64,000 bases of DNA from Lautropia sp. SCN 69-89 (GTDB lineage Bacteria; Pseudomonadota; Gammaproteobacteria; Burkholderiales; Burkholderiaceae_E), in the NCBI GenBank assembly GCA_001724855.1, contig MEED01000010.1, forward strand, positions 1-64,000. The letters run 5' to 3'. This document shows, in pieces, positions 9,993 through 37,588 of this stretch (its first letter is position 1; the number at the start of each line of letters is the position of its first letter). A program made the position numbers and the translations under genes. The notes beneath the pieces are model-generated. The model made no database searches, was not told the origin of the DNA, and worked only from the letters and a program-made list of their open reading frames with translations.

Positions 9993-10010
9993 TATTTCGG
10001 TACCACAATA
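9993..10010. promoter_or_regulatory. 18-bp palindrome, candidate operator (site A)
   Basis: TATTTCGGTACCACAATA is an imperfect palindrome around GGTACC. It matches the reverse complement of site C (37571-based, CATTCCGGTACCAGAATA) at 15 of 18 positions and shares the TATT/AATA ends with site B (21085-21102). It lies 60 bases from the FNR box, about 100 bases upstream of the had start codon. The binding protein is not known. Confidence 0.5.
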
Positions 10011-10109
10011 CAAGAATAAACGGCGACAAAACCCTGGTCAACCCCGAAACCGATGCGCGGCACGGGGTGCGGAAGACGAACAGCGTACGGCACAGGAGGC
10101 CGCGAAACA

Positions 10110-11174
10110 ATGAGCATCGAAGCGCACCGCTGGCTGATGAACGCGGTGAACACTCCGCTGGAACGCGCGACGTTCAACGCCGTCGCGGGCGAGGGCGAAG
10201 TGGTGGTGCAGGTGGCCGGCTGCGGCGTCTGCCACACCGACCTCGGCTACTTCTACGACGGCGTGCGCACCAACCACGCGCTGCCGCTCGCGCTCGGCCA
10301 CGAGATCAGCGGGCGCGTGGTCGCTGCCGGCGCCGGCGCGGAGCAATGGCTGGGCAAGGCGGTGATCGTCCCGGCGGTGCTGCCCTGCGGCGAGTGCGAT
10401 CTCTGCCGCCGCGGACTGGGCACGATCTGCCGCAACCAGAAGATGCCCGGCAACGACATCCAGGGCGGCTTCGCTTCCCATATCGTGGTTCCCGGTCGCG
10501 GGCTGTGCGAAGTCGACGAGGCGCGCCTGGCCGCAGCCGGACTCACGCTGGCGGAAGTATCGATCGTGGCCGACGCGCTCACCACGCCGTACCAGGCGGT
10601 GCGGCGCGCGGGCGTGGGGCCGGGCAGCCTGGCGGTGGTGATCGGCGCGGGCGGCGTCGGCGGCTACTGCGTGCAGATCGCCAACGCCAGCGGCGCGAAG
10701 GTGGTGGCGATCGACGTCGACGACGCGAAGCTGCAGGCGATCGCCGGCTACGGGGCCGCGCTCACGCTGAACAGCCGCCAGCTCGACGCGCGCGGCATCA
10801 AGGCGGCGATCGTCGAGTTCGCGAAGAAGAACGGCTTGCGTTCCACCGAGTGGTTCATCTTCGAGTGCTCGGGCACCGCGCCGGGCCAGCTCACCGCGTT
10901 CGGCCTGCTGGTGCATGGCGCGACGCTGTCGGTGGTCGGCTTCACGATGGACAAGATCGAGATCAGGCTGTCGAACCTGATGGCGTTCGACGCCCGGGCG
11001 ATCGGCAACTGGGGTTGTCCGCCGGAGTTCTATCCGGCTGCGCTCGACCTGGTGCTCGACGGCAAGGTGCAGATCAAGCCGTTCGTCGAGCCGCATCCGC
11101 TCGACGACATCAACCGCGTGTTCGACGCGGTCCACCATCGCGAGATCCGCAAGCGCGCGGTGCTCGTCCCCTGA
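10110..11174 (+). CDS. had: 6-hydroxycyclohex-1-ene-1-carbonyl-CoA dehydrogenase
   Basis: A 354-aa zinc-dependent medium-chain dehydrogenase. It oxidises 6-hydroxycyclohex-1-ene-1-carbonyl-CoA to the 6-oxo compound with NAD. Visible are the catalytic-zinc region [14 protein letters not shown] (C38), LGHEISG, the structural-zinc cysteines [15 protein letters not shown], and the NAD motif [11 protein letters not shown]. The start is ATG 10110 behind AGGAGG at 10094-10099; an earlier in-frame start at 10053 lacks a site. It is the first gene of had-oah-dch-bcrCBAD-fdx, the order found for Thauera-type clusters, and is probably controlled by the FNR box and palindrome upstream. Confidence 0.93.
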
Positions 11175-11188
11175 ACCAGGAGTCAAAA

Positions 11189-12289
11189 GTGCGCGAATTC
11201 AAGAACCACGACCTCGTCGACGACATCTCGAAGCCCGGCGTTCGCTACGAGAAGCGGCCGGCGAAGCTGCCCGACGGCTCGGTCGCGCCGGGGCTGTTCA
11301 ACGCCTGGATCACGCTGGACAACCCGGGCCAGTTCAATTCGTACACGACCGACATGGTCAAGGGAGTGATCCTCGCGTTCCGCGCGGCCTCGAATGCGCG
11401 CGACGTGAACTGCGTGGTCTTCACCGGTGCCGGCGACAAGGCGTTCTGCACCGGCGGCAACACCAAGGAATACGCCGAGTACTACGCCGGCCATCCGCAG
11501 GAATACCGCCAGTACATGCGGCTGTTCAACGACATGGTGTCGGCGATCCTCGCCTGCGACAAGCCGGTGATCTGCCGCGTGAACGGCATGCGCATCGGCG
11601 GCGGCCAGGAAATCGGCATGGCCTGCGACTTCTCGGTCGCGCAGGACCTCGCCCGCTTCGGCCAGGCTGGTCCGAAGCACGGCTCGGCGCCGATCGGCGG
11701 GGCCACCGACTTCCTGCCGGTGGTGGTGGGCGCCGAGCGCGCGATGGCCGCCTGCGTGCTGTGCGAGCCGTTCTCGGCGCACAAGGCCTACCAGATGGGC
11801 GTGCTTACCGACGTCGTTCCGGCGTTGAAGGTCGACGGCAAGTTCGTCGCCAACCCGCTGATCGAGACGCAGCGGATGGTCGACGAGTTCGGGCGCAACG
11901 TCTACGGCGAGCCCAAGACCGGCGAGGCGGCAAAGGACGGCAAGGCGCTGATGGCCCGCGGCACCGTCGACCTGTCGCTGCTCGACGCGAAGATCGAAGA
12001 GCTGTGCGCGAAGATGCTGCTCACCTTCCCCGACTGCACCACCAAGACGATCGAGGAGCTGCGCAAGCCCAAGCTCGACGCCTGGAACCGCAACAAGGAG
12101 AACTCGCGCGCCTGGCTCGCGCTGAACATGATGACCGAGGCGCGCTCGGGCTTCACCGCGTTCAACGAGGGTACGAAGGAGGACCGCGAGGTCGACTTCG
12201 TGCTGCTGCGCCAGAAGCTCGCCGCCGGCGAAAGCTGGGTCGGTCCGTTGCACGACTCGATCCAGCCGAAGGCGAAGCGCAAGGGGTGA
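11189..12289 (+). CDS. oah: 6-oxocyclohex-1-ene-1-carbonyl-CoA hydrolase (ring opening)
   Basis: A 366-aa crotonase-fold enzyme that adds water and hydrolytically opens the ring to 3-hydroxypimelyl-CoA. It has the oxyanion-hole regions FTGAGDKAFCTGGNTKEYAEYYAG and VNGMRIGGGQEIGMACDFSVA, and the family-specific GQAGPKHGSAPIGGATDFLP. The open frame extends far upstream through the had region in another frame. The best start is GTG 11189 (VREFKNHDLVDD), 5 bases after AGGAGT at 11179-11184 and 14 bases after the had stop. It is longer than ordinary enoyl-CoA hydratases, as expected for Oah. Confidence 0.93.
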   Translation: MREFKNHDLVDDISKPGVRYEKRPAKLPDGSVAPGLFNAWITLDNPGQFNSYTTDMVKGVILAFRAASNARDVNCVVFTGAGDKAFCTGGNTKEYAEYYAGHPQEYRQYMRLFNDMVSAILACDKPVICRVNGMRIGGGQEIGMACDFSVAQDLARFGQAGPKHGSAPIGGATDFLPVVVGAERAMAACVLCEPFSAHKAYQMGVLTDVVPALKVDGKFVANPLIETQRMVDEFGRNVYGEPKTGEAAKDGKALMARGTVDLSLLDAKIEELCAKMLLTFPDCTTKTIEELRKPKLDAWNRNKENSRAWLALNMMTEARSGFTAFNEGTKEDREVDFVLLRQKLAAGESWVGPLHDSIQPKAKRKG

Positions 12290-12293
12290 CGCG

Positions 12294-13067
12294 ATGCCCG
12301 ACGCTTCCCCGCTGAAGCAGGCGCTCGAGCGCGACGGCGCGTTGCTGCGCCTCACGCTGGCGCGCCCGAAGGCGAACATCGTCGATGCCGAGATGATCGG
12401 GGCGCTCTCGGGTGCGCTCGCCGCGCACGCCTCGGGCCGGGGTCTGCGCGGCGTGCTGCTTTGCGCCGAGGGCCCGAACTTCAGCTTCGGTGCGAGCGTC
12501 GAGGAGCACCTGCCCGAGCGCTGCGCCGCGATGCTGGCGTCGCTGCACGCGCTGGTGCTGTCGATGCTCGGGTTCCCGGCGCCGATCCTGGTGGCGGTGC
12601 GCGGCCAGTGCCTGGGTGGCGGGCTCGAGGTAGCGCTGGCTGGTGGACCGATCTTCGCGGGCCGCGATGCGCAGTTCGGCCAGCCGGAGATGAAGCTCGG
12701 CGTGTTCGCTCCGGCCGCCTCGGTGCTGCTGCCTTACCGGATGAACCAGCCGGCGGCCGAAGACCTGCTGTTCTCCGGTCGCTCGATCGGTGCCGACGAG
12801 GCGCTCGCCCGCGGGCTGGCGCAGCACGTGGCCGACGACCCGGAGACCGCGGCGCTGGCGTATTTCGATTCGCACCTGGCCGGCAAGAGCGCGGCCAGTC
12901 TCTCGCACGCCCTGACAGCCGCGCGTGGCGCGATGCTGCGCGACGTGCGCAACCGTCTCGCAGAGGTCGAGCAGCTGTATCTCGACCGGCTGATGAAGAC
13001 CCGCGACGCGAACGAGGGCCTCTCCGCGTTCCTCGCGAAACGCAAGCCTTCCTGGGAGCACTGCTGA
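12294..13067 (+). CDS. dch: cyclohexa-1,5-dienecarbonyl-CoA hydratase
   Basis: A 257-aa crotonase-family protein. It hydrates the dienoyl-CoA made by benzoyl-CoA reductase to 6-hydroxycyclohex-1-ene-1-carbonyl-CoA. The markers are LRLTLARPKANIVDAEMIGAL, LCAEGPNFSFGASVEEHLPE, VRGQCLGGGLEVALAGG and FGQPEMKLGVFAPAASVLLP. The catalytic acids of typical enoyl-CoA hydratases are replaced as in Dch proteins. The start is ATG 12294, 4 bases after oah. The stop overlaps the ATG of bcrC by one base. Confidence 0.9.
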   Translation: MPDASPLKQALERDGALLRLTLARPKANIVDAEMIGALSGALAAHASGRGLRGVLLCAEGPNFSFGASVEEHLPERCAAMLASLHALVLSMLGFPAPILVAVRGQCLGGGLEVALAGGPIFAGRDAQFGQPEMKLGVFAPAASVLLPYRMNQPAAEDLLFSGRSIGADEALARGLAQHVADDPETAALAYFDSHLAGKSAASLSHALTAARGAMLRDVRNRLAEVEQLYLDRLMKTRDANEGLSAFLAKRKPSWEHC

Positions 13068-14248
13068 TGAACACCGCCTCCTCTCCTGTCGAAGCGATCG
13101 TCGATCGCTGCCAGACGCTGTTCGAGGACCTGCATTTCAACGCCGTGAAGCAATGGAAGGCCGCCGCGCCGGGCCGCAAGGCCATCGGCTACATGCCGGT
13201 CTACGTGCCGCGCGAGCTGATCCACGCTGCCGGAATGCTGTCGGTGGGCATTCTCGGCGGCGGCGACCAGCTCGAGGTCATCCAGGGCGACGCCTACTAC
13301 CAGAGCTACATCTGTCGGATCCCGCGCTCGACCATCGAGCTCGGCCTCACCGGCCGCCTGGACTGTCTCGACGGCATGCTGTTCCCGTCGATCTGCGACG
13401 TGATCCGCAACCTCTCGGGCATGTGGCAGGTGATGTTCAAGGACAAGTACGTCCGCTACATCGACGTGCCGCAGAACTACGAAGACGCGATCGGCGGACG
13501 CTTCTACGTCGAGGAGATGGAGGTGCTGCGCCACGACCTCGGCGAACTGCGCGGCAAGCCGATCACCGACGACGAGCTCAACGCGTCGATCGCGGTCTAC
13601 AACGAGAACCGCAAGGCGGTGCGCGAGCTCTATGCCTACCGTGCCGCCAAGCCGTGGCAGGCGCCGACCTCCGAGGTGTACCTGATCCTGCGCGCCGGCA
13701 TGGTGCTGCCGGTCGAGGAGCACACGCAGCTGATCCGCGACTACCTGGCGGCCACCGACGTGGTGCCGCGGCCCAGGCGCGACAACGCGCGCATCGTGAT
13801 CAACGGGTCGTTCTGCGAGCAGCCGCCGCTGAACCTGATCAAGTCGATCGAGATGTCGGGCTGCTACATCGTCGACGACGACTTCATGCTCGTCACGCGC
13901 TGGCTGCTCGACGACGTGCCCACGAATGGCAACCCGCTCGAGGAGCTGTCGAAAGCCTTCCTGCACCGCTCGGCGTCCACCGCCGCCAAGTACGACGCGA
14001 AGCGCGAGGACAAGGGCCAGTACCTGCTCAGGCAGGTGAAGAACGGCGCCGCCGAAGGCGTCGTGTTCGCCGCACCGTCGTTCTGTGACCCGGCGCTGCT
14101 CGAGCGCCCGATGCTGCAGGACGTGCTGGCCAAGCACAAGGTTCCGTACACCGCATTCAAGTTCGCCGAGAACACCGGCCAGATGGCGCCGATCCGCGAA
14201 CAGTCCGGCACCTTCGCCGATTCGATCAAACTCTGGAGCGCAGCATGA
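13067..14248 (+). CDS. bcrC: benzoyl-CoA reductase, subunit C
   Basis: A 393-aa subunit of the BcrB/BcrC pair (2-hydroxyglutaryl-CoA dehydratase D-component family). It holds substrate and [4Fe-4S] clusters and performs the two-electron reduction of benzoyl-CoA to cyclohexa-1,5-diene-carbonyl-CoA. Features are KAIGYMPVYVPRELIHAAGMLSVG, cysteines in YICRIPRS, RLDCLDGMLFPSICDVIRN and GSFCEQPP, and a C-terminal TGQMAPIREQSGTFADSIKLW. The start is ATG 13067 inside the dch stop. It overlaps bcrB by 4 bases (ATGA). Confidence 0.94.
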   Translation: MNTASSPVEAIVDRCQTLFEDLHFNAVKQWKAAAPGRKAIGYMPVYVPRELIHAAGMLSVGILGGGDQLEVIQGDAYYQSYICRIPRSTIELGLTGRLDCLDGMLFPSICDVIRNLSGMWQVMFKDKYVRYIDVPQNYEDAIGGRFYVEEMEVLRHDLGELRGKPITDDELNASIAVYNENRKAVRELYAYRAAKPWQAPTSEVYLILRAGMVLPVEEHTQLIRDYLAATDVVPRPRRDNARIVINGSFCEQPPLNLIKSIEMSGCYIVDDDFMLVTRWLLDDVPTNGNPLEELSKAFLHRSASTAAKYDAKREDKGQYLLRQVKNGAAEGVVFAAPSFCDPALLERPMLQDVLAKHKVPYTAFKFAENTGQMAPIREQSGTFADSIKLWSAA

Positions 14249-15561
14249 GCACCGCCGCAACGCCCCCCGCCTCGAAGAAGCCGCAGAACGTCCAGAAAGA
14301 GGACGCGATGTGGCTCCAGAAGGAGCTGATCAACCGCAACTACCACGAGCTGGCCACCGCCCGCGCGCAGAACCGCAAGGTGTCGGCCACCTTCGTGCCC
14401 GGCAACCTGAACGAACTGCTGATGTGCTTCGACTTCGCGCGCAGCCTGCCGGAGACGAACGCGCTGCAGAACGGCATGCGCAAGAAGTCCGGCAAGTTCA
14501 TCATGGACGCCGAGCGCGAAGGCCAGTCCGAGGACGTCTGTACGTACGTGAAGGCCGACCTCGGGATGATGCAGGGCGGAGAGATCGGCCCCACCGGCGA
14601 GCCGCTGCCCACGCCCGACGTGCTGCTGCTGTCGTACACCGGCTGCTTCACCTTCATGAAGTGGTTCGAGCTCATCCGCCACAAGTACGGCTGTGAGACG
14701 GTGATGCTGCACGTGCCCTACCAGGGCGAGGGCAAGATCGCGCCGAACATGCGCGACTACGTGGTGCGCCAGCTCAAGGAGTCGGTGATCCCCACGCTCG
14801 AGCGCGTCTCGGGCGTGAAGTTCGACATCGACCGGCTGCGCCAGTACATGAAGGAGTCGGCCAAGGCCGAGGAAGACCTGGTCAGGGTGCTGCAGTCGGC
14901 CAAGAACCGGCCGTCGCCCATCGACGGTTACTTCGGCGCGGTCTACTACATCGGCCCGATCTTCACCGCGTTCCGCGGAACGCCCGAGGCGTCGCAGTAC
15001 TACAGCGTGCTGCGCTCCGAGATCGACGAGCGGGTGCGCCTGGGCAAGGGCCCCGTCACGCCCGACGGCGAGATGGGCGAGGAGAAGTACCGACTGGTGG
15101 TCGAAGGGCCGCCCAACTGGACGAGCTTCCGCGACTTCTGGAAGATGTTCTACGACGAGGGTGCGGTGGTGGTGTCGTCCACCTACGCGAAGGTCGGCGG
15201 CCTGTACGACTTCGGCTTCCGCCACGACCCCGACCATCCGCTCGAGTCGCTCGCCGAGTATTGCCTGGGCTGCTACACGAACCTGAACCTGCCGTCGCGG
15301 ATCGACATGATCTGCAAGTACATCGACGAGTACGAGGCCGACGGGCTGCTGATCAACTCGATCAAGAGCTGCAACAGCTTCTCGGCCGGGCAGCTGCTGA
15401 TCCTGCGCGAGGTCGAGAAGCGCACCGGCAAGCCGGCGGCGTTCATCGAGACCGACCTGGTCGACCCGCGCTACTTCTCGGCTGCCAACGTGAAGAACCG
15501 GCTCGAGAGCTACTTCCAGATGGTCAAGCAGAAGCGCGGCGCGGTCGCCGCGGCGCACTGA
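14245..15561 (+). CDS. bcrB: benzoyl-CoA reductase, subunit B
   Basis: A 438-aa partner of BcrC in the active-site module. It has [64 protein letters not shown] and [16 protein letters not shown], with the Cys residues expected to bind [4Fe-4S] clusters. The ATG at 14245 overlaps the end of bcrC, and the gene is followed 13 bases later by bcrA. The operon order C-B-A-D matches the ATP-dependent class I enzymes of Thauera and Rhodopseudomonas rather than the tungsten (Bam) enzymes. Confidence 0.94.
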
Positions 15562-15574
15562 TAAGGGGACCGCC

Positions 15575-16915
15575 ATGCGCTGTTTCATCGGCATCGACCT
15601 GGGCTCGACGACCACCAAGGCGGTGGTCATCGACGAGAACCAGAACGTCATCGGACGCGGCATCACGAACTCGCGCTCGAACTACGACACCGCGGCGGCC
15701 GTCGCCAAGCAGGAGGCGCTGGTCAACGGCCGGTTCCACCTGTTCAGGCAGGCGCTCGCGAGCACCAACGCGCTGAACGGACACCTCGAGGGCTTCCTGG
15801 GCCAGCTCGAGCGCGACTTCCGCGCCGAGCAGTACCTCGAGCAGCTCGGCGACCTGCACGACACCTGTCGGCGCAGCCTCGAGAGCGCGAAGTTCGGCGA
15901 CGACACCAAGGTGGTCGGCGAGGCGCTCGACGAAGTGTTCAAGCGCATCACCGTCGAGGCGCCGGCGCTATTCGCGCCGGGCGCCAAGCGCAAGTCCGAC
16001 TTCTTCCGCGACATCGCGGGCAGCCAGTACCTGGCCACCGGCGAGACGGTGGCGAAGGACCTGGGCACCCGCTACGACTACCTGCTCAACGTGTTCGACC
16101 GCTCGATCATCGAGGTGGAGAACCGCGTCTACGCCGAGTCGATCCGCCGCCACCTGCTGGCGGCGCTCGAGCGCACCTTCGCGGCGATGCCCGAGACCGC
16201 GAACCGGCGCGCTCAGGTCGAGTCGCCGGTGAAGGGCGTGCTCGACACCGAGATGGAGGAAACCTACGTCGTCGGCACCGGCTACGGCCGGGCACGGCTG
16301 CCGTTCTCGAAGGAGCACGTCCGCTCCGAGATCCTCTGTCACGGGCTGGGCGCGCACGTGATGTACCCGAACACGGCGACCGTGCTCGACATCGGCGGCC
16401 AGGACACGAAAGCGATCCAGGTCGATCCGGCCGGCATCGTCGAGAGTTTCCAGATGAACGACCGCTGCGCGGCCGGCTGCGGACGCTACCTCGGCTACAT
16501 CGCCGACGAGATGAACATGGGGCTGCACGAACTGGGCCCGCTGGCGATGAAGTCGACCAAGACCGTGCGGATCAACTCGACCTGCACCGTGTTCGCCGGC
16601 GCCGAACTGCGCGACCGGCTCGCGCTCGGCGACAAGCGCGAGGACATCATGGCGGGCCTGCACCGCTCGATCATCCTGCGTGCGATGTCGATCCTGGCGC
16701 GCTCGGGCGGCATCCGCAACGAGTTCACCTTCACCGGCGGCGTCGCGAAGAACGAAGCGGCAGTCAAGGCGCTGAAGGAGCTGGTGTTCGAGAACTACGG
16801 CGAGATGACCCTGAACATCGACCCCGACTCGATCTTCACCGGCGCGCTCGGCGGAGCCACCTTCGCATGGCGCGCGGTGGTCGAAGAAGGCAAGACGGCC
16901 GAGGCGCGCGCCTGA
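15575..16915 (+). CDS. bcrA: benzoyl-CoA reductase, ATPase subunit A
   Basis: A 446-aa ASKHA-type ATPase. [15 protein letters not shown] (about 6-20) is the phosphate-1 loop. [32 protein letters not shown] and [13 protein letters not shown] contain the Cys residues that share one [4Fe-4S] cluster with BcrD, and [17 protein letters not shown] is the adenosine motif. It couples ATP hydrolysis to electron transfer from ferredoxin to BcrBC. The long insert at about 60-200 is typical of BcrA compared with BcrD. RBS-like AAGGGG precedes ATG 15575. Confidence 0.94.
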
Positions 16916-16941
16916 GCCGCCCACCCAAACAGGAGAATGCG

Positions 16942-17781
16942 ATGACTTACACGATCGGCATCGACATCGGCTCGGGCGCGGTCAAGAGCGTGCTGTTCAA
17001 GGTGGACGGCGATCGCCAGGAGTGGCTGGCCAAGCGCTGCGAGCGCATCCGTCGGCGCGACCCGATGCAGCTGGCCGAGGAGGGCCGCGACGGCGTGCTC
17101 GCCGACGCCGGCATCGACCCCGGCCAGGTCGACTACACCGCCACCACCGGCGAGGGCGAGAACGTGAAGTTCGCCACCGGGCACTTCTACTCGATGACCA
17201 CGCACGCGCGCGGCGGCGTCTTCCTGCACCCCGGGGCGCGCGCAATCGTCGACATCGGCGCCCTGAACGGTCGCGCGATCTACGTCGACGAGCGCGGCAA
17301 GGTGCTGGCCTACAAGATGACGAGCCAGTGCGCCTCCGGCTCGGGCCAGTTCCTGGAGAACATCGCGCGCTACCTCGGCGTGGCGGTCGAGGAGATCGGC
17401 CCGCTGTCGCAGCAGTCGAAGAACCCCGAGAAAGTCAGCTCGATCTGTGCGGTGCTGGCCGAAACCGACGTGATCAACATGGTGTCGCGCAGCATCGCCC
17501 CGACCGATATCCTGAAAGGGATTCACTTGTCGATGGCGTCGCGTATCGTCAAGCTGTTGAAGGTCACCGGCATCAAGGAGGGCACGGCGCTGATGACCGG
17601 CGGCCTGGCGCTCGACAGCGGACTGCTCGCCGCGATCCGCGAGGAGATGGCCAACGAGAAGGCGAACGTCGAGGTGGTCAACCACCCCGACTCGATCTAT
17701 GCCGGGGCCATCGGCGCGGCGCTGTGGGGGGCGTTCCGCCACGGCAAGCTGGCCGGGCTGCAGGAACAGGCAATCGCGTAA
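16942..17781 (+). CDS. bcrD: benzoyl-CoA reductase, ATPase subunit D
   Basis: A 279-aa partner of BcrA. It has TIGIDIGSGAVKSVLFK, VDIGALNGRAIYVDERG, TSQCASGSGQFLENIARYLG and VSSICAVLAETDVINMVSRS (cluster Cys residues), then ALMTGGLALDSGLL. Together BcrA and BcrD form the activase-like electron module. The start is ATG 16942 behind AGGAG at 16931-16935; the longer frame from 16867 would overlap the end of bcrA. Confidence 0.94.
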   Translation: MTYTIGIDIGSGAVKSVLFKVDGDRQEWLAKRCERIRRRDPMQLAEEGRDGVLADAGIDPGQVDYTATTGEGENVKFATGHFYSMTTHARGGVFLHPGARAIVDIGALNGRAIYVDERGKVLAYKMTSQCASGSGQFLENIARYLGVAVEEIGPLSQQSKNPEKVSSICAVLAETDVINMVSRSIAPTDILKGIHLSMASRIVKLLKVTGIKEGTALMTGGLALDSGLLAAIREEMANEKANVEVVNHPDSIYAGAIGAALWGAFRHGKLAGLQEQAIA

Positions 17782-17795
17782 CCAGGAGGACTTCC

Positions 17796-18041: not shown

Positions 18042-18056
18042 CGCCGGGCCTTCGGC

Positions 18057-19184: not shown

Positions 19185-19190
19185 GCCGCG

Positions 19191-20572: not shown

Positions 20573-21067
20573 TCAGGCGGCCGCGTAGGCGAACGCGAGT
20601 TCGCGGTCGGTGTCGTCGTCGAGCAGGTCGTCGAGCATCGGCAGCAACGCCATGGTTTCCTTCTGGATGTGGGCGACCTGGCGCTCGACCATCTCGAGCG
20701 CGCCGACCTTCAGCGCGTTCCAGCCGTCGTCGTCGAGCGTGCCGGCAGCCGCGGCGCGCGCCAGCGGCAGCATCTCGTCGGCCACCGCGCGGATCGCCGC
20801 GTGCTCCTCGGCGAGCAGCTCGGCGATGTCGCCTTCGCCCGCGTCGGCCAGCCGCGTGAAGAGCTCGCGCTCCTCGAAGTCGAAGTGGCGGTGGACGTCC
20901 TGCTCGAGGTGGCGCGCGAAGCTGGCCGCCACGCGGGCGAGCTCGGGGTCGCGGCTCGCGCCGGAGCGCGGCGCGCGCGCGAAGGCCTGCTCGATCCGGC
21001 CGAGCAGGTCGAGGTTCGTGCGGTGCTCGTCGTCGAGCGTGTGGCTGACCTGGCGCTGGAAGCTCAT
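20573..21067 (-). CDS. hemerythrin-like domain protein
   Basis: A 164-aa four-helix protein with the HHE/hemerythrin pattern: HTLDDEHRTNLDLLGRIE, ARHLEQDVHRHFDFEERELFTRL, LLAEEHAAIRAVADEML and MVERQVAHIQKETMALLPMLDDLL. These proteins bind a diiron site and sense or store O2, or react with NO. The start is ATG 21065-21067; an earlier in-frame Met at 21127 would place the palindrome and most of the control region inside the gene. It is the first gene of the unit that includes the double GNAT, DUF59 and a membrane protein. Confidence 0.88.
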   Translation of the reverse strand: MSFQRQVSHTLDDEHRTNLDLLGRIEQAFARAPRSGASRDPELARVAASFARHLEQDVHRHFDFEERELFTRLADAGEGDIAELLAEEHAAIRAVADEMLPLARAAAAGTLDDDGWNALKVGALEMVERQVAHIQKETMALLPMLDDLLDDDTDRELAFAYAAA

Positions 21068-21084
21068 CGTCGGTCCAATAATGG

Positions 21085-21102
21085 TATTCGAATACTGGAA
21101 TA
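21085..21102. promoter_or_regulatory. 18-bp palindrome, candidate operator (site B)
   Basis: TATTCGAATACTGGAATA shares TATTC at one end, GGAATA at the other and TAC in the middle with site C (13 of 18 identical), and the TATT/AATA ends with site A. It begins 18 bases upstream of the hemerythrin start codon. It would overlap the -10 element and start point expected from the FNR-like box at 21127, a typical repressor position. Confidence 0.5.
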
Positions 21103-21126: not shown

Positions 21127-21140
21127 TTGATGCGGGTCAA
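21127..21140. promoter_or_regulatory. FNR-like box upstream of the hemerythrin gene
   Basis: TTGAT-GCGG-GTCAA matches the FNR consensus except for one base in the second half. Its centre (21133.5) is 66.5 bases from the hemerythrin start codon, almost the same distance as the box in front of korA. It overlaps the stop codon of the upstream membrane-protein gene (21137-21139). A second dyad, GGACC-N5-GGTCC, lies at 21111-21125. Confidence 0.6.
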
Positions 21141-22450
21141 GCAACCTTTGCATCGGGGCGCGCGCGTGCCGGCGGGGGGCGGCGCATGCGCAGCAGCAGG
21201 ATGACGTAGAAGGCGGCGAACGCGCCCGCGCCCGCCGCCCCGACCAGCGCGCCTGCCGCGGCGATCCAGCCGTTGTCGAGCACGATCGCCAGTGCCAGCA
21301 ATGTCAGCGCAGACAGATGGCACCAGAAGTGGACGGCGAGCGGCCGGTCGGCGGTGAGCGACGAGGGCGTGCGCGGCGGCGACTTTCCGGGCGGCTTGTG
21401 CATCGAGGCGAGGAACGGGACGATGCGCTGAAGGATGCCGAGCAGGAAGGTGAGCAGCCAGCCGGCGATCAGCACCAGGCCGAACAGCGTGGGCATGCCG
21501 TCGAACGGCAGGTCGACGGCGAGCGCAAGGGCGGCGACCAGGCTGAGCGCGAGCAGCGTCCACGAGATGCGTACCAGCCGGAACGAGCGGCCCAGTTCGC
21601 GGCGCATGCCGGTCTTCAGCGCGACCGTCATCAGTCGCAGGTGCAGCGCGATCGCCACGGCGGCGCAGAGCACGGCGGCGATGCGCAGCAGGCGCGGGGC
21701 CGCGCCCAGCGCGGCGGCCGCGGCGAGCGCGAGAGCCAGGATCGCGAGCGCGCACGAGGCGAGCGCGCGCCGCTCGTGCGGTGCTGCCGACAGCGCGAAC
21801 ATCGGAACGAGGATGTACGACAGGCCGAGCGCGAGCATGCCCATGAAGCCGTAGGCGGCGAACAGCACGTGCAGCGCGAGGCCGGCGCCGCGATCGAGCA
21901 GCGGCATGCCGACGTAGGTGAACGCGAGCGAGAACGCGGTGACGAGCGCGATCAGCAGCGAGGCGAACGCGGTCCAGCCATGGGCGACGACCACCGGCAT
22001 GCCGCGCGCGCCGGCCAGGTTCTGCGCGAGAAGCGCCGCATAGACGAGCAGCGCGGCCACCACCGCGGCGGCCCCGGCGGCGAGCAGCCAGGGCAGCGCG
22101 AAGCCCATGCCCAGCGCGATCGAGGCCACGCCCGGCGCGTACAGCCACCACACCAGCACGGGCCCGCGCATCGAACGCACCGGCTGGCGCGTGGCCACCG
22201 GCAGCAGCTGCAGGCTCGCGCCGATCGCGGTCATTGCCAGCACGCCCAGCGTCACGAGGTGCAGCGCAGCGAGCGTCCAGCCCAGCCCGCCGGCGAAGCG
22301 CGGCAGGCCGGCGCTGCCTGCCAGCAGCGCGAGCCATGCGAATACGTGGCTGGCTACCGCCGCGCCGAAGAAGCGCAGCGGAATCGAGGCGGGCAGCAGC
22401 CGGCTGGTCGCGCCCGCCAGGAAGTTGCCCGCAGCGAGCCTGGTCGCCAT
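21137..22450 (-). CDS. multi-pass heme-copper-oxidase-like membrane protein
   Basis: A 437-aa protein with about twelve membrane helices. Conserved His motifs at helix starts, LAALHLVTLGVLAMTAIGASLQLLPVATRQP and ALHVLFAAYGFMGMLALGLSYILVPMFAL, resemble the cytochrome-oxidase-subunit-I-like/NnrS-like proteins found near denitrification genes. The basic C-terminus RMRRPPPARARPDAKVA is probably cytoplasmic. It lies 20 bases after the DUF2249 gene on the same strand. Function is unknown; NO or haem handling is the best inference. Confidence 0.65.
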   Translation of the reverse strand: MATRLAAGNFLAGATSRLLPASIPLRFFGAAVASHVFAWLALLAGSAGLPRFAGGLGWTLAALHLVTLGVLAMTAIGASLQLLPVATRQPVRSMRGPVLVWWLYAPGVASIALGMGFALPWLLAAGAAAVVAALLVYAALLAQNLAGARGMPVVVAHGWTAFASLLIALVTAFSLAFTYVGMPLLDRGAGLALHVLFAAYGFMGMLALGLSYILVPMFALSAAPHERRALASCALAILALALAAAAALGAAPRLLRIAAVLCAAVAIALHLRLMTVALKTGMRRELGRSFRLVRISWTLLALSLVAALALAVDLPFDGMPTLFGLVLIAGWLLTFLLGILQRIVPFLASMHKPPGKSPPRTPSSLTADRPLAVHFWCHLSALTLLALAIVLDNGWIAAAGALVGAAGAGAFAAFYVILLLRMRRPPPARARPDAKVA

Positions 22451-26195: not shown

Positions 26196-26660
26196 TCATT
26201 CCTTCGCGGCGGCCTTCACCGATTCGATGATCTTGACGTAACCGGTGCAGCGGCACAGGTTGCCCGACAGGGCGTCGCGGATTTCGGCGTCGCCAGGATG
26301 CGGATTGCGGCGCAGCAGGGCTTCCGAGGCCATGATCATGCCCGGCGTGCAGAAGCCGCACTGCGTGCCGAGGTTCTCGTGGAACGCCTGCTGCAGGCGG
26401 CTCATGCGGCCGCTGGCCGACAGGCTCTCGATGGTCTCGACGTGCCTGCCTTCGCAGCTCGCGGCCAGCGTGATGCAGGCGAGCCGTGTTTCGCCGTCGA
26501 CCAGCACGGTGCAGGCGCCGCATTCGCCGCCGTCGCAGCCCTGCTTGGTGCCGGTGAGGCCGACGGTGTCGCGCAGGTAATCGACGAGCAGCGCGTGATC
26601 GGCGACCGCGTCCTCGCGGGCGCGCCCGTTCACGGTCAGGGAAAGCAGTCGCTTGGCCAT
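26196..26660 (-). CDS. hcrC: 4-hydroxybenzoyl-CoA reductase, 2x[2Fe-2S] gamma subunit
   Basis: A 154-aa iron-sulfur subunit. The plant-type cluster is C42, C47, C50 and C62 ([14 protein letters not shown]...LAC) and the second cluster is C101, C104, C136 and C138 ([10 protein letters not shown]...GNLCRCTGY). It passes electrons between the other subunits and the low-potential donor. The start is ATG 26658-26660, 4 bases downstream of the ligase gene, and the gene is followed by hcrA after 4 bases. Confidence 0.93.
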
Positions 26661-26664
26661 GGTT

Positions 26665-28017
26665 TCACACCCCCTTCGGTCGCAGGTCGCGCACGCGCAC
26701 CGCCTTGCCCTGCGAGCGCGGGATCTCGCCGGGACGCTTGACGACGACGTCGGTGCTGATGCCGAGCATCGACTTGATCTGGTGCGCCACCTTGCGCGCG
26801 ATGCCGTCGTAGGCGGTCGGATCGACGCCGGGCTGCGCTTCGGTCTCGACCGTCACGTGGTCGAGCCGGCCGTGGCGCTCGACCACCAGCTGGTAGTGCG
26901 GCGCGATGTTCTCCAGGCCGACCAGCACCGCCTCGACCTGCGACGGGTAGACGTTCACGCCGCGGATGATCAGCATGTCGTCGTTGCGGCCGGTGACCCT
27001 CAGGATGCGCAGGTGCGTGCGCCCGCAATCGCACGGCGCGGTTGTGATCCGCGTGATGTCGCGCGTACGGTAGCGCAGCATCGGCAGCGCCTCCTTGGTG
27101 AGCGTGGTGATCACCAGCTCGCCGGCTTCGCCCTCGGGCAGTTGCCGCCCCGTGTCCGGATCGATCACCTCGAACAGGAAGTGATCCTCCCAGCCGTGCA
27201 GGCCGGCGTGGTGCTCGCATTCGCAGGCCACGCCGGGGCCCATGATCTCGGACAGGCCGTAGATGTCGACCGCGCGGATGCCCAGGCGCGCCTGGATCTC
27301 GCGGCGCATCGCATCGCTCCAGGGCTCGGCGCCGAACATGCCGACCTCGAGCGCGGAATCTTTCGCCAGGTCGACGCCCTGCTGCTCGGCGAGCTCGGCG
27401 ATCGCCAGCGCGTACGACGGCGTGGAGCACAAGACGCGCGCCCGGAAGTCCATGATGAGCGACACCTGGCGCTCGGTGGAGCCGCCCGACATCGGCACCA
27501 CCACCCCGCCGAGCCGCTCGGCGCCATAGTGCGCGCCCAGGCCCCCGGTGAACAGGCCGTAGCCGTAGGCGTTGTGGACCACGTCGCCGCGGCGCGCGCC
27601 GCCCGAATACAGCGAGCGCGCCATCAGGTCGGCCCAGTTGTCGAGGTCGCCGCCGGTGTAGCCGACCACGGTCGGCTTGCCGGTCGTGCCCGAGGAGGCG
27701 TGCAATCGCGCGAGCTCGCCGACCGGACGCGCGAACATGCCGAACGGATAGTGGTCGCGCAGATCGGTCTTGAGCGTGAACGGCAGCCGCTGCACGTCGT
27801 CGAGCGAACGGATGTCGTCGGGCGAAATGCCGGCCGCGTCGAGCCGCGCGCGATGCAGCGGCACGTTCTCCCAGGCGTTCTTCACGGTCTTGCGAAGCCG
27901 CTCGAGCTGCAGCGCCGCCAGCCGCTCGCGCGGCAGGGTCTCGACCTCGGGATGGAGGTGACGGGCGTCGGCAGGCTGCGCGGCGCGGGCGGGCCGGTGG
28001 GTGGTGCTCGTGCTCAT
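26665..28017 (-). CDS. paaK: phenylacetate-CoA ligase (AMP-forming)
   Basis: A 450-aa member of the PaaK/PadJ family. It has the phosphate loop ASSGTTGKPTVVGYT, GMFGAEPWSDAMRREIQ, DIYGLSEIMGPGVACEC, LRYRTRDITRI and VTGRNDDMLIIRGVNVYPSQ, and a C-terminal catalytic Lys in IPRSQGKAVRV. It converts phenylacetate, CoA and ATP to phenylacetyl-CoA, AMP and pyrophosphate. Its place between padBCD and hcrCAB fits phenylacetate or 4-hydroxyphenylacetate as substrate; sequence alone does not separate the two. In Thauera the matching gene is padJ. Confidence 0.9.
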   Translation of the reverse strand: MSTSTTHRPARAAQPADARHLHPEVETLPRERLAALQLERLRKTVKNAWENVPLHRARLDAAGISPDDIRSLDDVQRLPFTLKTDLRDHYPFGMFARPVGELARLHASSGTTGKPTVVGYTGGDLDNWADLMARSLYSGGARRGDVVHNAYGYGLFTGGLGAHYGAERLGGVVVPMSGGSTERQVSLIMDFRARVLCSTPSYALAIAELAEQQGVDLAKDSALEVGMFGAEPWSDAMRREIQARLGIRAVDIYGLSEIMGPGVACECEHHAGLHGWEDHFLFEVIDPDTGRQLPEGEAGELVITTLTKEALPMLRYRTRDITRITTAPCDCGRTHLRILRVTGRNDDMLIIRGVNVYPSQVEAVLVGLENIAPHYQLVVERHGRLDHVTVETEAQPGVDPTAYDGIARKVAHQIKSMLGISTDVVVKRPGEIPRSQGKAVRVRDLRPKGV

Positions 28018-28896: not shown

Positions 28897-29543
28897 GCCT
28901 GCGCCTTGTCCCAGAGATAGTAGAAGCCGGGGCCGGTGCCGAGCTCCTCGTGCATGCGGAAGTACTGGTTCTCCGCGAGCAGCTGCGAGACGTTGCTGGC
29001 CGGATCGTCGAGGTCGCCGAAGGTGAGCGCCTTCGCGATGCACGCGTTCACGCAGGCCGGCGTGGCCTCGGGATCGACGCCAGGCGTCTGCCCCTTCTCG
29101 AGGCCGGCGTCGATGCGCTCGACGCAGAAGGTGCACTTGGTGGCCACTCCCAGCCGTGCGTCGTCGTGGCGCCTGGCCTCGCTCTCGGTGGGCGCTCCGT
29201 AGGCGAAGGTGGGCCGCTCGGTCTTGTAGCGCGCCTGGTAGGGGCAGGCGACCGCGCAATAGGCGCAGCCGATGCACAGGTCGTAGTCGATCGTGACGAT
29301 GCCGTCGGGCCGCTTCTTCGTGGCGGTGGTGGGGCACACCTCCATGCACGGCGGATCGTCGCAGTGCTGGCAGCCGGTGGGCACGAACGCGCGGCGCACT
29401 TCCGGGTATTCGCCGAACTCCATGTCGAGCACGCGCCGCCACTGCACGCCCGGCGGCGTGGCGTTGGCGTGCTTGCACGACGCGGTGCAGGTCTGGCAGC
29501 CGACGCAGCGACGCAGGTCGGCGATCATGGCCCAGCGCGTCAT
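28893..29543 (-). CDS. padC: phenylacetyl-CoA:acceptor oxidoreductase, iron-sulfur subunit
   Basis: A 216-aa four-cluster ferredoxin-like subunit. It has C13-x2-C16-x2-C19-x3-C23 at the N-terminus, then GCQHCDDPPCMEVCP, CIGCAYCAVACPYQARY and KCTFCVERI...ACVNACIAKAL. It links the molybdenum subunit to the membrane subunit. The start at ATG 29541-29543 overlaps the padB stop by 4 bases (29540-29543). Confidence 0.9.
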   Translation of the reverse strand: MTRWAMIADLRRCVGCQTCTASCKHANATPPGVQWRRVLDMEFGEYPEVRRAFVPTGCQHCDDPPCMEVCPTTATKKRPDGIVTIDYDLCIGCAYCAVACPYQARYKTERPTFAYGAPTESEARRHDDARLGVATKCTFCVERIDAGLEKGQTPGVDPEATPACVNACIAKALTFGDLDDPASNVSQLLAENQYFRMHEELGTGPGFYYLWDKAQA

Positions 29544-32305
29544 GCCGCGGCCCTCCGGATGGCGACGCGCACGATGTCGGCGCTCGAGCCGGTGGCGTCG
29601 GTGAGATCCATCGACATGGTGGCCAGCGCGTTCAGGCTGGGCACGCCGAAGTCTTTCGCGAACGGCGTGGCCCAGTGGTTGAACTGGCCGATCAGCAGCA
29701 GCGTGTCGGGACGGATGCCCTGGCGCAGCACCGCGCGTCCGCGCACGCTGCGCTTCGGCGTGGCGATCTCGATCTCGTCGCCATCCTCGATGCCGAGCTT
29801 CGCGGCCGCCTGCGGGTTCACGATCACGCCGCGGTGGCCTGCGACGTTTTCGGCGACTTCGCGGATCATCTGCACGCCGACGTTGCCGCCCCAGGCGTAC
29901 TGCATGCTGCGCGAGGTGAGCAGCCAGAACGGATAGTCTTCGGCGTGCGCGCCGTCGGCGGTGACGATGCCTTCCCAGAGCCCGGGGAAGTCTTTCCACG
30001 GGGGCAGCGCCTGGTACTCGCCCATCTGCTTGTCCCACCAGCGCATGTCGTGCTCGTGCAGTCGCCGACCCAGCTCGGCGCCCACGCGCATCAGGCGCTC
30101 CTGGTAGGGCAGCTCGAAGCGCAGGTTGCGCTCGACCATCGTCGGATACAGGTACCAGGCGAGGCGCGGAAACGGCTTCGTGGCCAGCCCCTGCTCCTTC
30201 CACCAGTCGAGCCCGTGGGCCTGCGCACCGTCGGTGAGCTCGGCGCTGGCCGCACGGCAGGCCGCGTCCCAGATCTCCTCGCGGGTATGCGCGCGCTCGA
30301 GCGCCAGGGAGAAGTCGCCGTGCTCGCCCTTCAGCGGCACTCCGCACGTGCCCTTGTTGATCGACGCGTTGTACTTCTCGAGGATGCCGCTGCGTCGCGC
30401 CAGTTCGGTGGCGATGTCGGTGAAGTCGCGGGCCTGCCCGCGCATCGCGACTGCAGGCTGGCGCAGCGCGAAGCCTTCGTGGTCCCAGAACTGTTCCACG
30501 TACTTGGTCGCGCCGATGCGGATCAGCTGCAGCCCTTCGAGGTCGGTCGCGTCGGGCAGCAGGATGTCGGCGAAGTGGTTGGTCTCGTCGCGCGTGTACG
30601 CGAGCGCGACGACGAACGGGAAGCGGGCGATCTTGTCGGCGACCGACAGCGTGTCCCAGAACGAGATCGCCGGGTTCGTGCGGTAGACGAACCAGACGTC
30701 GGGGAAGGTGACCTTCGGCAGGCCCTTCGGCGTTTCGTCGAGGAACATCCACGAGAAGTGCGTCGGGCCGAGCGCCTGGCTCCATGCGCCGTTGCCCACG
30801 AGCGGCACCATCGTGCGATAGGCGTTGCGGATGTTCGGGCGCGGCGACCAGTTCTTTCGGTCGGTGGGGTTCAGCGGGTAGGCCATGAACCCGTCGGGGC
30901 CGGGCTTCGCGCTCTCCAGCCGCTCGGACATCGGGCGCACCAGCCGCACGGTGGTGCCGATGGTGCCGCCGGGAACCTCGAGCGCGCCCACCAGCGAGGC
31001 GAGCATCGTTCGCGCCCAGCAGCACTCGTAGCCGCCCCAGCCGTTGTTGATCGTCTTGCCCAGCGTGACCGCGACCGGGCGATACGGAAGCTCGCGGCCC
31101 TCGATCTCGATCGTCTGGCCGACGCAGGCGTGCTCGACGTATTCGAGCGCGATCCTGCGCATCGTGGCCGCCGGCACGTCGCAGACGCCCTGCGCCCACT
31201 CGGGCGAGTAGGGCCGCATGTGCGCGACCAGCTTGTCGAACGCGGTCTCGCCCGCGAGCAGGCCGTCGGCGAGCACCTCGTCGTCGGGGCCGATCTCGAC
31301 CGCGTCGACCTCGACGCTGGCGTGCAGTGCTTCGTCGAGCCCCTCGCTGTCGTGCGGGCGGGCGCAGCCGGCGCTCGCATCCCAGACGAGCGGCTTGCGG
31401 CTCGCGCGATCGCGCAGGTAGTAGCCGTTGGGGCCGACCAGGTACGCCGACGCGGTGCGCCTGGCGAGGAAGGGCAGGTCGAGCCGCTCGCGCGGCACTT
31501 CGTGCAGCAGCACGTGGATCAGCGCATAGAGGAACGCCGCGTCGGTCTTGGGTTTGATCGGCACCCACTGCGCCGAGCAGGCACCGGTGACCGACAGGTG
31601 CGGCTCGACCTGGACGCGCTTCAGGCCGCGCACGCGCGCCTGCGAATGCCGCCAGACGCCGACCACGCCGCCCGAGGCCTCGATGTTCGAGCCGCAGGAG
31701 ATCAGGTAGTTGCAGTTCGGCGTGTCGGCCGCGACGATGAACGCGCGGTGCCAGAACTCGCCGTACAGGTGCTCGGAGTGGTCGCACTTGACGCCCTGGC
31801 CCGAGCCGAAGCCCATGTCGACCGGCCCCCAGGCCGCGAGGAAGGCCGGGAACGTGCCCATGTAGAACTGCGGCGTGCCGCCGCCGCCGAAGCTCGCCGC
31901 CAGCCGCGGGTAGCCCGATTCGTCGGTGAGGCCCTGCTCGCGGATGCGGTTCAGGCGCTCGGCGATCGTGTCGAACGCCTCCTCCCAGGAGATCGGCACG
32001 AAGCCCGGATCCTGGTCGCGGCCCTTCTTCGGGTTGGTCCGCTTCATCGGCGTGAGGATCCGGTTCGGGTTGTAGGTCTTCTGGACCAGCCCGTAGGCCT
32101 TCACGCAGACCTTGCCGCCGCCCGGATGGATCTTCTCGGCGCAGAAGTTGGGCTCCACCTCGGTGGCCACGCCATCGACCACCTTGACGGTGAGCAGGTC
32201 GGGGCCCGCCACGCACTGGTAGCAGTAGGTGGGAACCCGGCGCAGGCCAGGCGCGGGCGCGTCGGCGCGGCCCGCGTCGGCTGCGGCGGCAGCAGCGACG
32301 CTCAT
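29540..32305 (-). CDS. padB: phenylacetyl-CoA:acceptor oxidoreductase, molybdopterin subunit
   Basis: A 921-aa DMSO-reductase-family protein. An N-terminal [4Fe-4S] site is C28, C31, C55 and C67 (YCYQC...FCAEK...KVCVKAYG). NRILTPMKRTNPKKGRD, VKCDHSEHLYGEFWHRAF and the C-terminal LLTSRSMQYAWGGNVGVQM bind the pterin cofactor. No twin-arginine signal is seen, so it should be cytoplasmic, facing the membrane, which suits a CoA-ester substrate. It oxidises the alpha carbon of phenylacetyl-CoA to give phenylglyoxylate. It overlaps the preceding thioesterase gene by 4 bases. Confidence 0.88.
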   Translation of the reverse strand: MSVAAAAAADAGRADAPAPGLRRVPTYCYQCVAGPDLLTVKVVDGVATEVEPNFCAEKIHPGGGKVCVKAYGLVQKTYNPNRILTPMKRTNPKKGRDQDPGFVPISWEEAFDTIAERLNRIREQGLTDESGYPRLAASFGGGGTPQFYMGTFPAFLAAWGPVDMGFGSGQGVKCDHSEHLYGEFWHRAFIVAADTPNCNYLISCGSNIEASGGVVGVWRHSQARVRGLKRVQVEPHLSVTGACSAQWVPIKPKTDAAFLYALIHVLLHEVPRERLDLPFLARRTASAYLVGPNGYYLRDRASRKPLVWDASAGCARPHDSEGLDEALHASVEVDAVEIGPDDEVLADGLLAGETAFDKLVAHMRPYSPEWAQGVCDVPAATMRRIALEYVEHACVGQTIEIEGRELPYRPVAVTLGKTINNGWGGYECCWARTMLASLVGALEVPGGTIGTTVRLVRPMSERLESAKPGPDGFMAYPLNPTDRKNWSPRPNIRNAYRTMVPLVGNGAWSQALGPTHFSWMFLDETPKGLPKVTFPDVWFVYRTNPAISFWDTLSVADKIARFPFVVALAYTRDETNHFADILLPDATDLEGLQLIRIGATKYVEQFWDHEGFALRQPAVAMRGQARDFTDIATELARRSGILEKYNASINKGTCGVPLKGEHGDFSLALERAHTREEIWDAACRAASAELTDGAQAHGLDWWKEQGLATKPFPRLAWYLYPTMVERNLRFELPYQERLMRVGAELGRRLHEHDMRWWDKQMGEYQALPPWKDFPGLWEGIVTADGAHAEDYPFWLLTSRSMQYAWGGNVGVQMIREVAENVAGHRGVIVNPQAAAKLGIEDGDEIEIATPKRSVRGRAVLRQGIRPDTLLLIGQFNHWATPFAKDFGVPSLNALATMSMDLTDATGSSADIVRVAIRRAAA

Positions 32306-32709: not shown

Positions 32710-32781
32710 CGGATTCTCCGTGTTCGTTGCCGGGCATGGCGGATGCCGGACCGGCGTCGTGAGTGGCGGATTCCTGGCGGG

Positions 32782-34330: not shown

Positions 34331-34332
34331 CG

Positions 34333-36169: not shown

Positions 36170-36206
36170 TGCCGTTCCTCGCCGGGGTGGCCGGTCGGCG
36201 CTGCCG

Positions 36207-37376
36207 TCAGTTCTTGACCAGCGTCCAGTTGCCGTTGCGCACTTCGAGCATGCGGAAGGCGCTGAGGTCGAGACCCATGTGGTCGGTGGGCGACATGTTG
36301 AACTGCCCGCCCGTGCCCATCAGGCCCTTGGTCTTCTCGATCTCGTCGCGCACCTTGGCCTTGTCGGTGCCGCCGGCGCGCTTGATCGCCTCGACCGCGA
36401 TCATCAGCGCATCGTAGGCGTGGCCGCCGAAGGTGGACACGTCGGACTTGTAGCGCGCCGTGTAGTCGTGGGCGTACGCCGTCACGACCGGCTTCTGCGG
36501 ATCGTTGGCGGGCAGGATGTCGGCCACCAGCAGCGCGGCAGCGGGCAGGCGCACGCCTTCAGCCGCTCCGCCGGAGAGCTTGATGTACTCCTTGGAGGCC
36601 ACGCCGTGCGACTGGTAGAAGGGCTGCGTGAGGCCGAGCTGGCGGTAGTTCTTCGTGACGATCGCCGGACCCTGGCCGAAGCCGCAGTTCATCACCGCCT
36701 GCACGCCGGGCGTGCCCTTGATCTTGGTGAGCTGCGCGGTCATGTCGGTGTCGGCTGCGCCGTAGCTCTCGTCGGCGACGATCTCGATGCCGTACTTCGG
36801 CGCCACCTTGATGCACTCGTTGCGCAGAGACTTGTCGAAGCCGCCGGCCCCGGTGATCAGCGCGAGCTTGCTCAGCTTGCGCTCGTTCATGTCGGTGAAG
36901 ATCTTCTCGCAGGCCATGCGATCGGTGTGCGGCGTCTTGAACACCCACTTCTTCACCGGCTCGATGATGACTACCGCGCCCGCCAGCGAGATGAACGGGA
37001 TCTGCGCCTGCTCGACCAGCGGCACCGCGGCCATCGTTTCGCCGGTGCTCGTGCCGCCGATGATGAGATCGACCTTGTCCTGCTCGACGAGCCGCTTGGT
37101 GAAGGTGCGCGCCTTCTCGGCGTCGCCGGCGGAGTCGTAGGAGACCAGTTGCAGCTTGCGCCCGAGAACGCCGCCCGCCGCGTTGATGCGCTCGACGTAC
37201 ATGTCGAGCGTCTTCTGTTCGGGGTCGCCGAGGAAGGAGGCGGGCCCGGTGACCGCAAGGAACGCCCCGATTTTGATAGGCTCCTGTGCCGCGGCCGTTC
37301 CGGTTCCGATCAGCGCGGCCGCGGCGAAGGTGCCGGCCAGGCGGATCGCGATTCGGGCACTTGCAACGAAATTCAT
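36207..37376 (-). CDS. periplasmic binding protein of the branched-chain-type transporter
   Basis: A 389-aa type I periplasmic binding protein. A signal peptide (about residues 1-31, AGTFAAAALIGTGTAAAQ) precedes EPIKIGAFLAVTGPASFLGDPEQKTLDMYVERINAAGG. LIIGGTSTGETMAAVPLVEQAQIPFISLAG and the C-terminal GTGGQFNMSPTDHMGL belong to the Peripla_BP_6 family, whose members in aromatic clusters bind benzoate-like acids. The start is ATG 37374-37376 with GAGGAG upstream. It heads the long minus-strand block; a 250-bp region with site C and an FNR-like box separates it from the GNAT gene. Confidence 0.88.
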   Translation of the reverse strand: MNFVASARIAIRLAGTFAAAALIGTGTAAAQEPIKIGAFLAVTGPASFLGDPEQKTLDMYVERINAAGGVLGRKLQLVSYDSAGDAEKARTFTKRLVEQDKVDLIIGGTSTGETMAAVPLVEQAQIPFISLAGAVVIIEPVKKWVFKTPHTDRMACEKIFTDMNERKLSKLALITGAGGFDKSLRNECIKVAPKYGIEIVADESYGAADTDMTAQLTKIKGTPGVQAVMNCGFGQGPAIVTKNYRQLGLTQPFYQSHGVASKEYIKLSGGAAEGVRLPAAALLVADILPANDPQKPVVTAYAHDYTARYKSDVSTFGGHAYDALMIAVEAIKRAGGTDKAKVRDEIEKTKGLMGTGGQFNMSPTDHMGLDLSAFRMLEVRNGNWTLVKN

Positions 37377-37570
37377 CCGAGTCTCCTCTTCTTGTCTGCG
37401 ACGACATGGCCGCGATGCGGCCTGGATTCGCCCCGTCGCGCGCTTCGCGCGAGACGGGGCAGTTGCGCCATCGGCCGGCTGCCGGGACGGGGCCGACCGA
37501 CGGTGTCTGCTCGGGGCAACGAACCGCGCGTCTGTGGCAACGACATTTACAGAACGCCCGTTAACCCCTA

Positions 37571-37588
37571 TTCTGGTACCGGAATGCG
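37571..37588. promoter_or_regulatory. palindrome, candidate operator (site C)
   Basis: The core ATTC-TGGTACCG-GAAT is an inverted repeat around GGTACC (37575-37580). The full 18-mer TATTCTGGTACCGGAATG runs from 37569 to 37586; the feature edges given are approximate. It resembles site A (15 of 18, opposite orientation) and site B (13 of 18). On the minus strand AGAATA (complement of 37569-37574) could be the -10 of the binding-protein operon, so a bound regulator would block it. Confidence 0.5.

Follow-up and report, generated by a model that had tools for sequence, protein, structure and literature searches.

A ~27-nt element shared by benzoyl-CoA promoters of Lautropia sp. SCN 69-89 as the predicted operator of a BadM-type Rrf2 regulator

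We analysed a stretch of 64,000 nucleotides (nt) from Lautropia sp. SCN 69-89 (assembly GCA_001724855.1, contig MEED01000010.1, positions 1 to 64,000; hereafter the window) that carries an island of aromatic degradation genes. Three 18-mers in its intergenic regions (sites A, B, and C), together with a fourth site (D) outside the island, all belong to one asymmetric motif of ~27 nt centred on GGTAC. From their sequences and conservation, the three 18-mers look like genuine regulatory sites, evolutionarily kept before genes that dismantle the aromatic ring. We consider it highly probable that A to D are operators of a BadM-type Rrf2 repressor encoded at 38179-38736, which would control its own operon and gate a benzoyl-coenzyme A (CoA) regulon activated by FNR. 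We infer the binder, the sign of regulation, the ligand, and the operon extents from the sites, conservation, gene context, and co-occurrence that were observed.

The 18-mers read TATTTCGGTACCACAATA (A, starting at 9993), TATTCGAATACTGGAATA (B, 21085), and TATTCTGGTACCGGAATG (C, 37569), each an imperfect palindrome with 14 of its 18 positions self-complementary. In the best orientation, A and C are identical at 15 positions, B and C at 13, and A and B at 12. A preliminary description of the window, made from its letters, had listed these 18-mers, with identities of 15/18, 13/18, and about 12/18, an FNR-type box near each, and korA/had, a hemerythrin gene, and a transporter/pad/hcr block as the genes concerned. 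The sequences and coordinates proved exact and recomputation gave the same identities; boxes were found at all three sites (with 0, 1, and 1 mismatches), and domain and TIGR matches came close to the gene naming. The scheme it had offered for the motif, TATTC-N8-GAATA, was too loose. With up to two mismatches it occurs at 170 sites in the 3.8-Mb genome compared with 54 for a reversed control and is therefore not specific; for this reason it was rejected as an operator definition and replaced by the 27-nt element around GGTAC. Site C has the transporter operon on one side and the GNAT-Rrf2 operon on the other, and it may serve both.

The tighter consensus YATTCCGGTACCGGAATR is found with up to three mismatches at six sites in the genome and at one site in the control. 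Among the six, D has no mismatch, C has one, and four have three, these including A and a site upstream of ilvD. Site B has four mismatches and thus falls outside this cut. We also trained a 27-nt profile on 33 unique sites from the genus, A to D included, after removing four of 37 unique sites from the alignment (the mislocated C and B of genome G060 and the weak C of G063 and G073). On its own genome, at an E-value of up to 3, the profile gave eight matches at five places, namely C, D, A, B, and upstream of ilvD. Because A to D had been in the training set, each site class was left out in turn, every class being capped at 12 unique sites; these runs, like the gap scoring described below, excluded only the two mislocated G060 sites. 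Across 120 kb of own-genome DNA, searched on both strands, the held-out classes were recovered at ranks 4 (A), 7 (B), 3 (C), and 5 (D), and the places ranked above each were exclusively other sites or their reverse strands.

The position of B beyond the three-mismatch cut would agree with a chance resemblance, which would leave a regulon of A, C, and D only. However, the profile trained without B places it right after A, C, and D in the 120 kb, all 16 hemerythrin promoters of the genus align with a motif-like stretch and match the profile (15 of the 16 being in the training set), and the hemerythrin promoter is also matched in G705, a genome from another class. We regard a chance origin of B as very improbable and retain it among the predicted operators.

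Conservation was followed in a genus sample of 18 genomes. All 12 genomes with had retain both the motif and the FNR box in the had promoter (a second had-like match of G060, L080, with 51% identity, was excluded from the promoter alignment), and the motif is likewise retained in 9 of 9 promoters of the second reductase described below. A motif-like stretch is present in the hemerythrin promoters of 16/16 genomes, degenerate in some, and site C is clear, with two or fewer mismatches, in 8 of 17. Comparing these intergenic regions in related genomes had been put forward in the preliminary description as a check, and the result speaks for the motif at the had and hemerythrin promoters and in part at C. 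The mean majority-base frequency in motif columns compared with other upstream columns was 0.94 versus 0.73 for A (12 genomes), 0.82 versus 0.62 for B (16 genomes), and 0.95 versus 0.66 for D (9 genomes).

Site D, on contig C32, is the copy nearest to the consensus and stands with a perfect FNR box before a benzoyl-CoA-reductase-like operon. This operon, at G000:C32:60422-61600 (L020:10423-11601, minus strand) and in the genes that follow, includes an acyl-CoA dehydratase activase, and the proteins of its first two genes resemble subunits C and B of benzoyl-CoA reductase, with scores under the curated cut-offs. To judge by its sequence, it is a second, diverged reductase, close copies of which are found in 9 of the 18 genus genomes.

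A TTGATNNNNATCAA-type box lies upstream in the promoters, as expected if they are activated by an FNR-type protein. The centre of the palindrome is 60 (A), 40 (B), 27 (C), and 46 bp (D) from the centre of the box. Class II promoters have the FNR box at -41.5, and with the boxes so placed the palindromes would be centred at +18.5 (A), -1.5 (B), -14.5 (C, leftward), and +4.5 (D). Such centres, 27 to 60 bp from the box and near the start that it predicts, might also be expected of -10 regions, in which case the 18-mers would merely be core elements of look-alike FNR-dependent promoters. Against this, the palindromic GGTACC core is foreign to -10 elements, the distance to the FNR box is variable, giving the appearance of two separate regulator sites, and in 30 loci of another family (f65, below) the best FNR box within ~150 bp has at least three mismatches. 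We give the promoter-element explanation hardly any credence.

As binder of the sites, the Rrf2 protein of the window is the favoured candidate. It matches PF02082 (94.2 bits, cut-off 30) and TIGR00738 (99.5 bits, cut-off 73.3), adjoins a BadL-type GNAT gene as BadM does, and has benzoyl-CoA reductase and related genes nearby both in the window and in loci of another class. We found no sign of the iron-sulfur (Fe-S) type represented by IscR, NsrR, and RirA: the protein is without cysteine, the homologue alignment has no invariant cysteine, and the equivalog cut-offs were not reached. Given the absence of cysteine, a ligand and not an Fe-S cluster is the likely signal. Relatives in named genomes were analysed at 80 of 453 loci, R. 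palustris lying outside these 80. The GNAT gene stands just 5' of the Rrf2 gene on the same strand, with the pair intact, in 79 of the 80, and the motif precedes the GNAT gene with up to four mismatches in at least 42 of the 79 compared with 0/79 for the reversed motif (locus L186, at a contig edge, was mis-windowed and entered as a miss). In several named loci the motif takes a shifted form at an unchanged distance, TATTCTCGTACTTAAATG being one example, which suggests that the operator drifts.

The motif also follows the regulator within the family. Of 74 family genomes, 24 have the Rrf2 gene, and 11 of these contain the motif with at most one mismatch compared with 0 of the 50 without the gene; at up to two mismatches the counts are 18/24 and 5/50 (reversed control 0/24 and 6/50). 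Of the 18 genus genomes, G064 alone yields no profile match, and it also lacks an Rrf2 match. Control of the whole island by one regulator, for which the Rrf2 protein was the candidate, had already been proposed; it is a prediction here as well, one that the conserved footprints, the co-occurrence, and the motif before the GNAT-Rrf2 operon of many relatives fit.

The Rrf2 gene was found in 7 genomes of a 398-genome phylum sample (the own genome counted), in 22 of 385 genomes sampled from the class to which G212 belongs, and in 69 of 75 genomes of the family of G212, f65. The second class hosting the motif is probably the Alphaproteobacteria. In f65, the core lies within five mismatches near the GNAT start in 27 of 30 loci and the reversed motif in 0 of 30, the starts having been extrapolated from the window protein; none of the 30 loci scanned has an FNR box with fewer than three mismatches within ~150 bp. 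In G212, boxC (L210:1092-2756; TIGR03222, 899 bits) is divergent from the GNAT-Rrf2 pair, and the operator core lies between the badL-like gene and boxC. This arrangement is apparently recurrent in f65, where boxC was flagged in 26 of the 30 loci only by a short, weak peptide signature, and suggests that one switch is reused for the aerobic box pathway.

The genus-trained profile matched 29 of 61 sources at an E-value of up to 1, some sources being overlapping stretches of one genome. Of 12 larger stretches, 4 were matched. G705 has matches before the GNAT gene (24.3 bits) and before hemerythrin (15.7 bits), G545 has one in the korA-had gap (14.2 bits), and G823 has one in the bcrC-GNAT gap (18.2 bits), indicating that the slots of all three window sites are found again in another class. 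G006, from the window's own family, was matched at a transporter-like promoter (19.5 bits; gene read by eye). G264 has a weak motif in the had-korA gap (16.4) and, by eye, no clear motif at the GNAT promoter. Scored against random 260-bp stretches, all 16 gene gaps chosen by context exceeded the 95th percentile and 12 the 99th, compared with 4 and 0 for the reversed profile; this null, drawn from the same loci set, favours the gaps, which have other lengths and more A+T than coding DNA, but its pool also contains true sites, which works the other way.

Several observations weigh against one operator code read by this regulator. Site C has at least four mismatches in 9 of 17 genus genomes, and at least six mismatches stand before the GNAT gene in 26 of the 79 named loci. 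Eight of the 12 larger stretches gave no profile match at an E-value of up to 2, and the motif search found none on an Agrobacterium tumefaciens plasmid segment (L221) with an annotated GNAT-Rrf2 pair. Some of the two-mismatch sites in the co-occurrence count, inside open reading frames, are probably there by chance. The fifth profile match, at G000:C43:12309-12332 (L018, L300) between ilvD (TIGR00110) and a bfd-like gene, concerns a non-aromatic gene and is kept in 6 genus genomes immediately 5' of a -10-like TACACT, which may mean that the regulon extends further or that a different Rrf2 protein reads related sequences. Three further Rrf2 proteins of the genome are possible readers of this kind, one IscR-like, one RirA/NsrR-like on the contig of site D, and one a SUF regulator.

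With four Rrf2 proteins encoded and one of them sharing a contig with D, the sites could be read by a different member, for example the RirA/NsrR-like protein on C32, as an iron or nitric oxide (NO) signal; hemerythrin and ilvD would be fitting targets for a response to iron, oxygen, or NO. Yet three of the four main sites precede benzoyl-CoA genes or their transporter, and the motif precedes the GNAT-Rrf2 pair in two classes and tracks the window-type Rrf2 gene within the family. The NsrR and IscR motifs also differ from the 27-nt motif. We consider a different Rrf2 reader unlikely and prefer the BadM-type protein encoded next to site C.

In the mechanism that we propose for the BadM-type protein, an FNR-type activator, to judge by the boxes, would switch the promoters on in anoxia, while an Rrf2 dimer over or near the transcription start, where the palindromes are predicted to lie, would block the polymerase until an aromatic-derived ligand frees it from the operator. 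By analogy with R. palustris, the ligand may be an aminobenzoate acetylated by the neighbouring GNAT enzyme, or another aryl compound related to it. Besides had-oah-dch-bcr for ring reduction and hydration, the regulon would take in the second reductase operon, the hemerythrin gene, genes for uptake and peripheral steps, and the operon of the regulator itself. More broadly, we lean towards the view that BadL-BadM pairs are one regulatory module across two proteobacterial classes, with a single conserved ~27-nt operator. Such a module would govern anaerobic benzoyl-CoA reduction through bcr/had/korA, the second reductase, transport, and a hemerythrin that handles oxygen or NO; in another family it would extend to the aerobic box pathway. 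If this is true, one operator code could be carried over between ring degradation that needs oxygen and ring degradation that does not.

Table 1. Predicted regulatory sites and genes of the aromatic island (window coordinates)
Feature	Position	Strand	Match or remark
Site A, predicted operator in korA-had gap	9993..10010	+	27-nt profile match 9992-10017; kept in 12/12 genus had promoters
Site B, predicted operator 5' of hemerythrin gene	21085..21102	-	profile match 21077-21102, - strand
Site C, predicted operator, ABC-transporter operon (left) / GNAT-Rrf2 operon (right)	37569..37586	+	profile match 37569-37594
FNR-type box, promoter A	9935..9948	+	TTGATNNNNATCAA, 0 mismatches
FNR-type box, promoter B	21127..21140	-	1 mismatch to TTGATNNNNATCAA
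FNR-type box, promoter C	37598..37611	not assigned (.)	1 mismatch to TTGATNNNNATCAA
korA-type 2-oxoacid:acceptor oxidoreductase alpha subunit	8100..9878	-	TIGR03710
had, 6-hydroxycyclohex-1-ene-1-carbonyl-CoA dehydrogenase, first gene past site A	10110..11174	+	TIGR03201
oah (approximate start)	11168..12289	+	TIGR03200
dch	12294..13067	+	TIGR03189
bcrC, benzoyl-CoA reductase subunit C (matched part)	13181..14230	+	TIGR02263, 620 bits
bcrB, benzoyl-CoA reductase subunit B	14245..15561	+	TIGR02260
bcrA, benzoyl-CoA reductase subunit A	15575..16915	+	TIGR02259, 703 bits
bcrD, benzoyl-CoA reductase subunit D	16942..17781	+	TIGR02261
Hemerythrin-domain protein, first gene past site B	20573..21067	-	PF01814
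hcrA, 4-hydroxybenzoyl-CoA reductase alpha subunit	23777..26191	-	TIGR03194
hcrC, 4-hydroxybenzoyl-CoA reductase gamma subunit	26196..26660	-	TIGR03193
Aryl-CoA ligase similar to phenylacetate-CoA ligase	26665..28017	-	TIGR02155, 599 bits, below cut-off 646
Molybdopterin oxidoreductase (pad block of the preliminary description)	29540..32305	-	PF00384
ATP-binding cassette (ABC) transporter substrate-binding protein, first gene left of site C	36207..37376	-	PF13458
GNAT acetyltransferase, BadL-like by gene context	37627..38160	+	PF00583; directly 5' of Rrf2 gene
Rrf2-family regulator, BadM-like by gene context, proposed binder	38179..38736	+	PF02082; no cysteine

Upstream of the hemerythrin gene, the minus strand of the window contains an open reading frame of 437 amino acids (21137-22450) with no Pfam match at an E-value of up to 1; proteins related to it at 46 to 48% identity are encoded close to hemerythrin in G705 and G871 clusters and close to hcr in G305. 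A copy of the motif in the relative G065 (L306; G065:C119:57543) is directly 5' of a gene resembling the molybdopterin oxidoreductase at 29540-32305, as read by eye from the protein start. The GNAT-Rrf2 pair of L221 (NZ_CP123840.1, 229100-259480) has as neighbours genes for a molybdopterin-binding oxidoreductase and an ABC transporter, as well as a gene of the benzoate-CoA ligase family.

The type of regulator described here is already known. In the literature covered, the primary BadM-site papers aside, we found no operator sequence, BadM-type hemerythrin regulon, or boxC link, and the sequence may be in print; a search for the operator strings in paper texts gave none on this subject by title among the matches listed. 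The primary papers are said to be Peres and Harwood 2006, Hirakawa 2015, and Egland and Harwood 1999, and the BadM binding region in R. palustris has reportedly already been studied. The motif supplies a candidate sequence code for a regulator type that, as far as the literature covered shows, was studied experimentally in one phototroph. It also yields predictions for other genomes, among them the operons of the regulon, the membership of hemerythrin, and control of the paralogous reductase operon on C32 by the same aromatic signal. The available parts of a 2024 survey of benzoate-CoA ligase clusters report BadM only in an alphaproteobacterial context (PMC10803450).

The window protein shares the Rrf2 family with NsrR, IscR, and CymR, which are solved relatives matched by profile, and differs from NsrR and IscR in being without cysteine and so without Fe-S ligands of that kind. 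A second point of comparison is the bzd PN promoter of Azoarcus/Aromatoleum, where an FNR-type activator box is combined with BzdR/AcpR control and BzdR has its operators in three regions, each made of TGCA repeats (PMC6678401). As predicted here, the activator box there goes together with a dedicated repressor that covers the start of an operon for anaerobic benzoyl-CoA metabolism; the difference is that one 27-nt GGTAC element takes the place of the TGCA repeats. No TGCA repeat was present in the aligned 27-nt motif, the promoters beyond the motif being unscanned and the BzdR gene not searched for.

The closest parallel is BadM-BadL of Rhodopseudomonas palustris. There, the Rrf2 protein BadM binds the badC-badD gap and represses badDEFGAB, acetamidobenzoates made by BadL release it, and badL-badM clustering is known in Magnetospirillum and Geobacter (PMC6191541). 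The two systems have in common adjacent GNAT and Rrf2 genes near benzoyl-CoA reductase genes and an FNR/Crp-type activator at the target promoter, AadR in R. palustris and a predicted reader of the FNR box here. The likeness is one of gene context. In contrast to R. palustris, at least four candidate promoters are involved in Lautropia sp. SCN 69-89, including those of hemerythrin, the transporter, and the second reductase, and the pathway is of the had/oah/dch kind.

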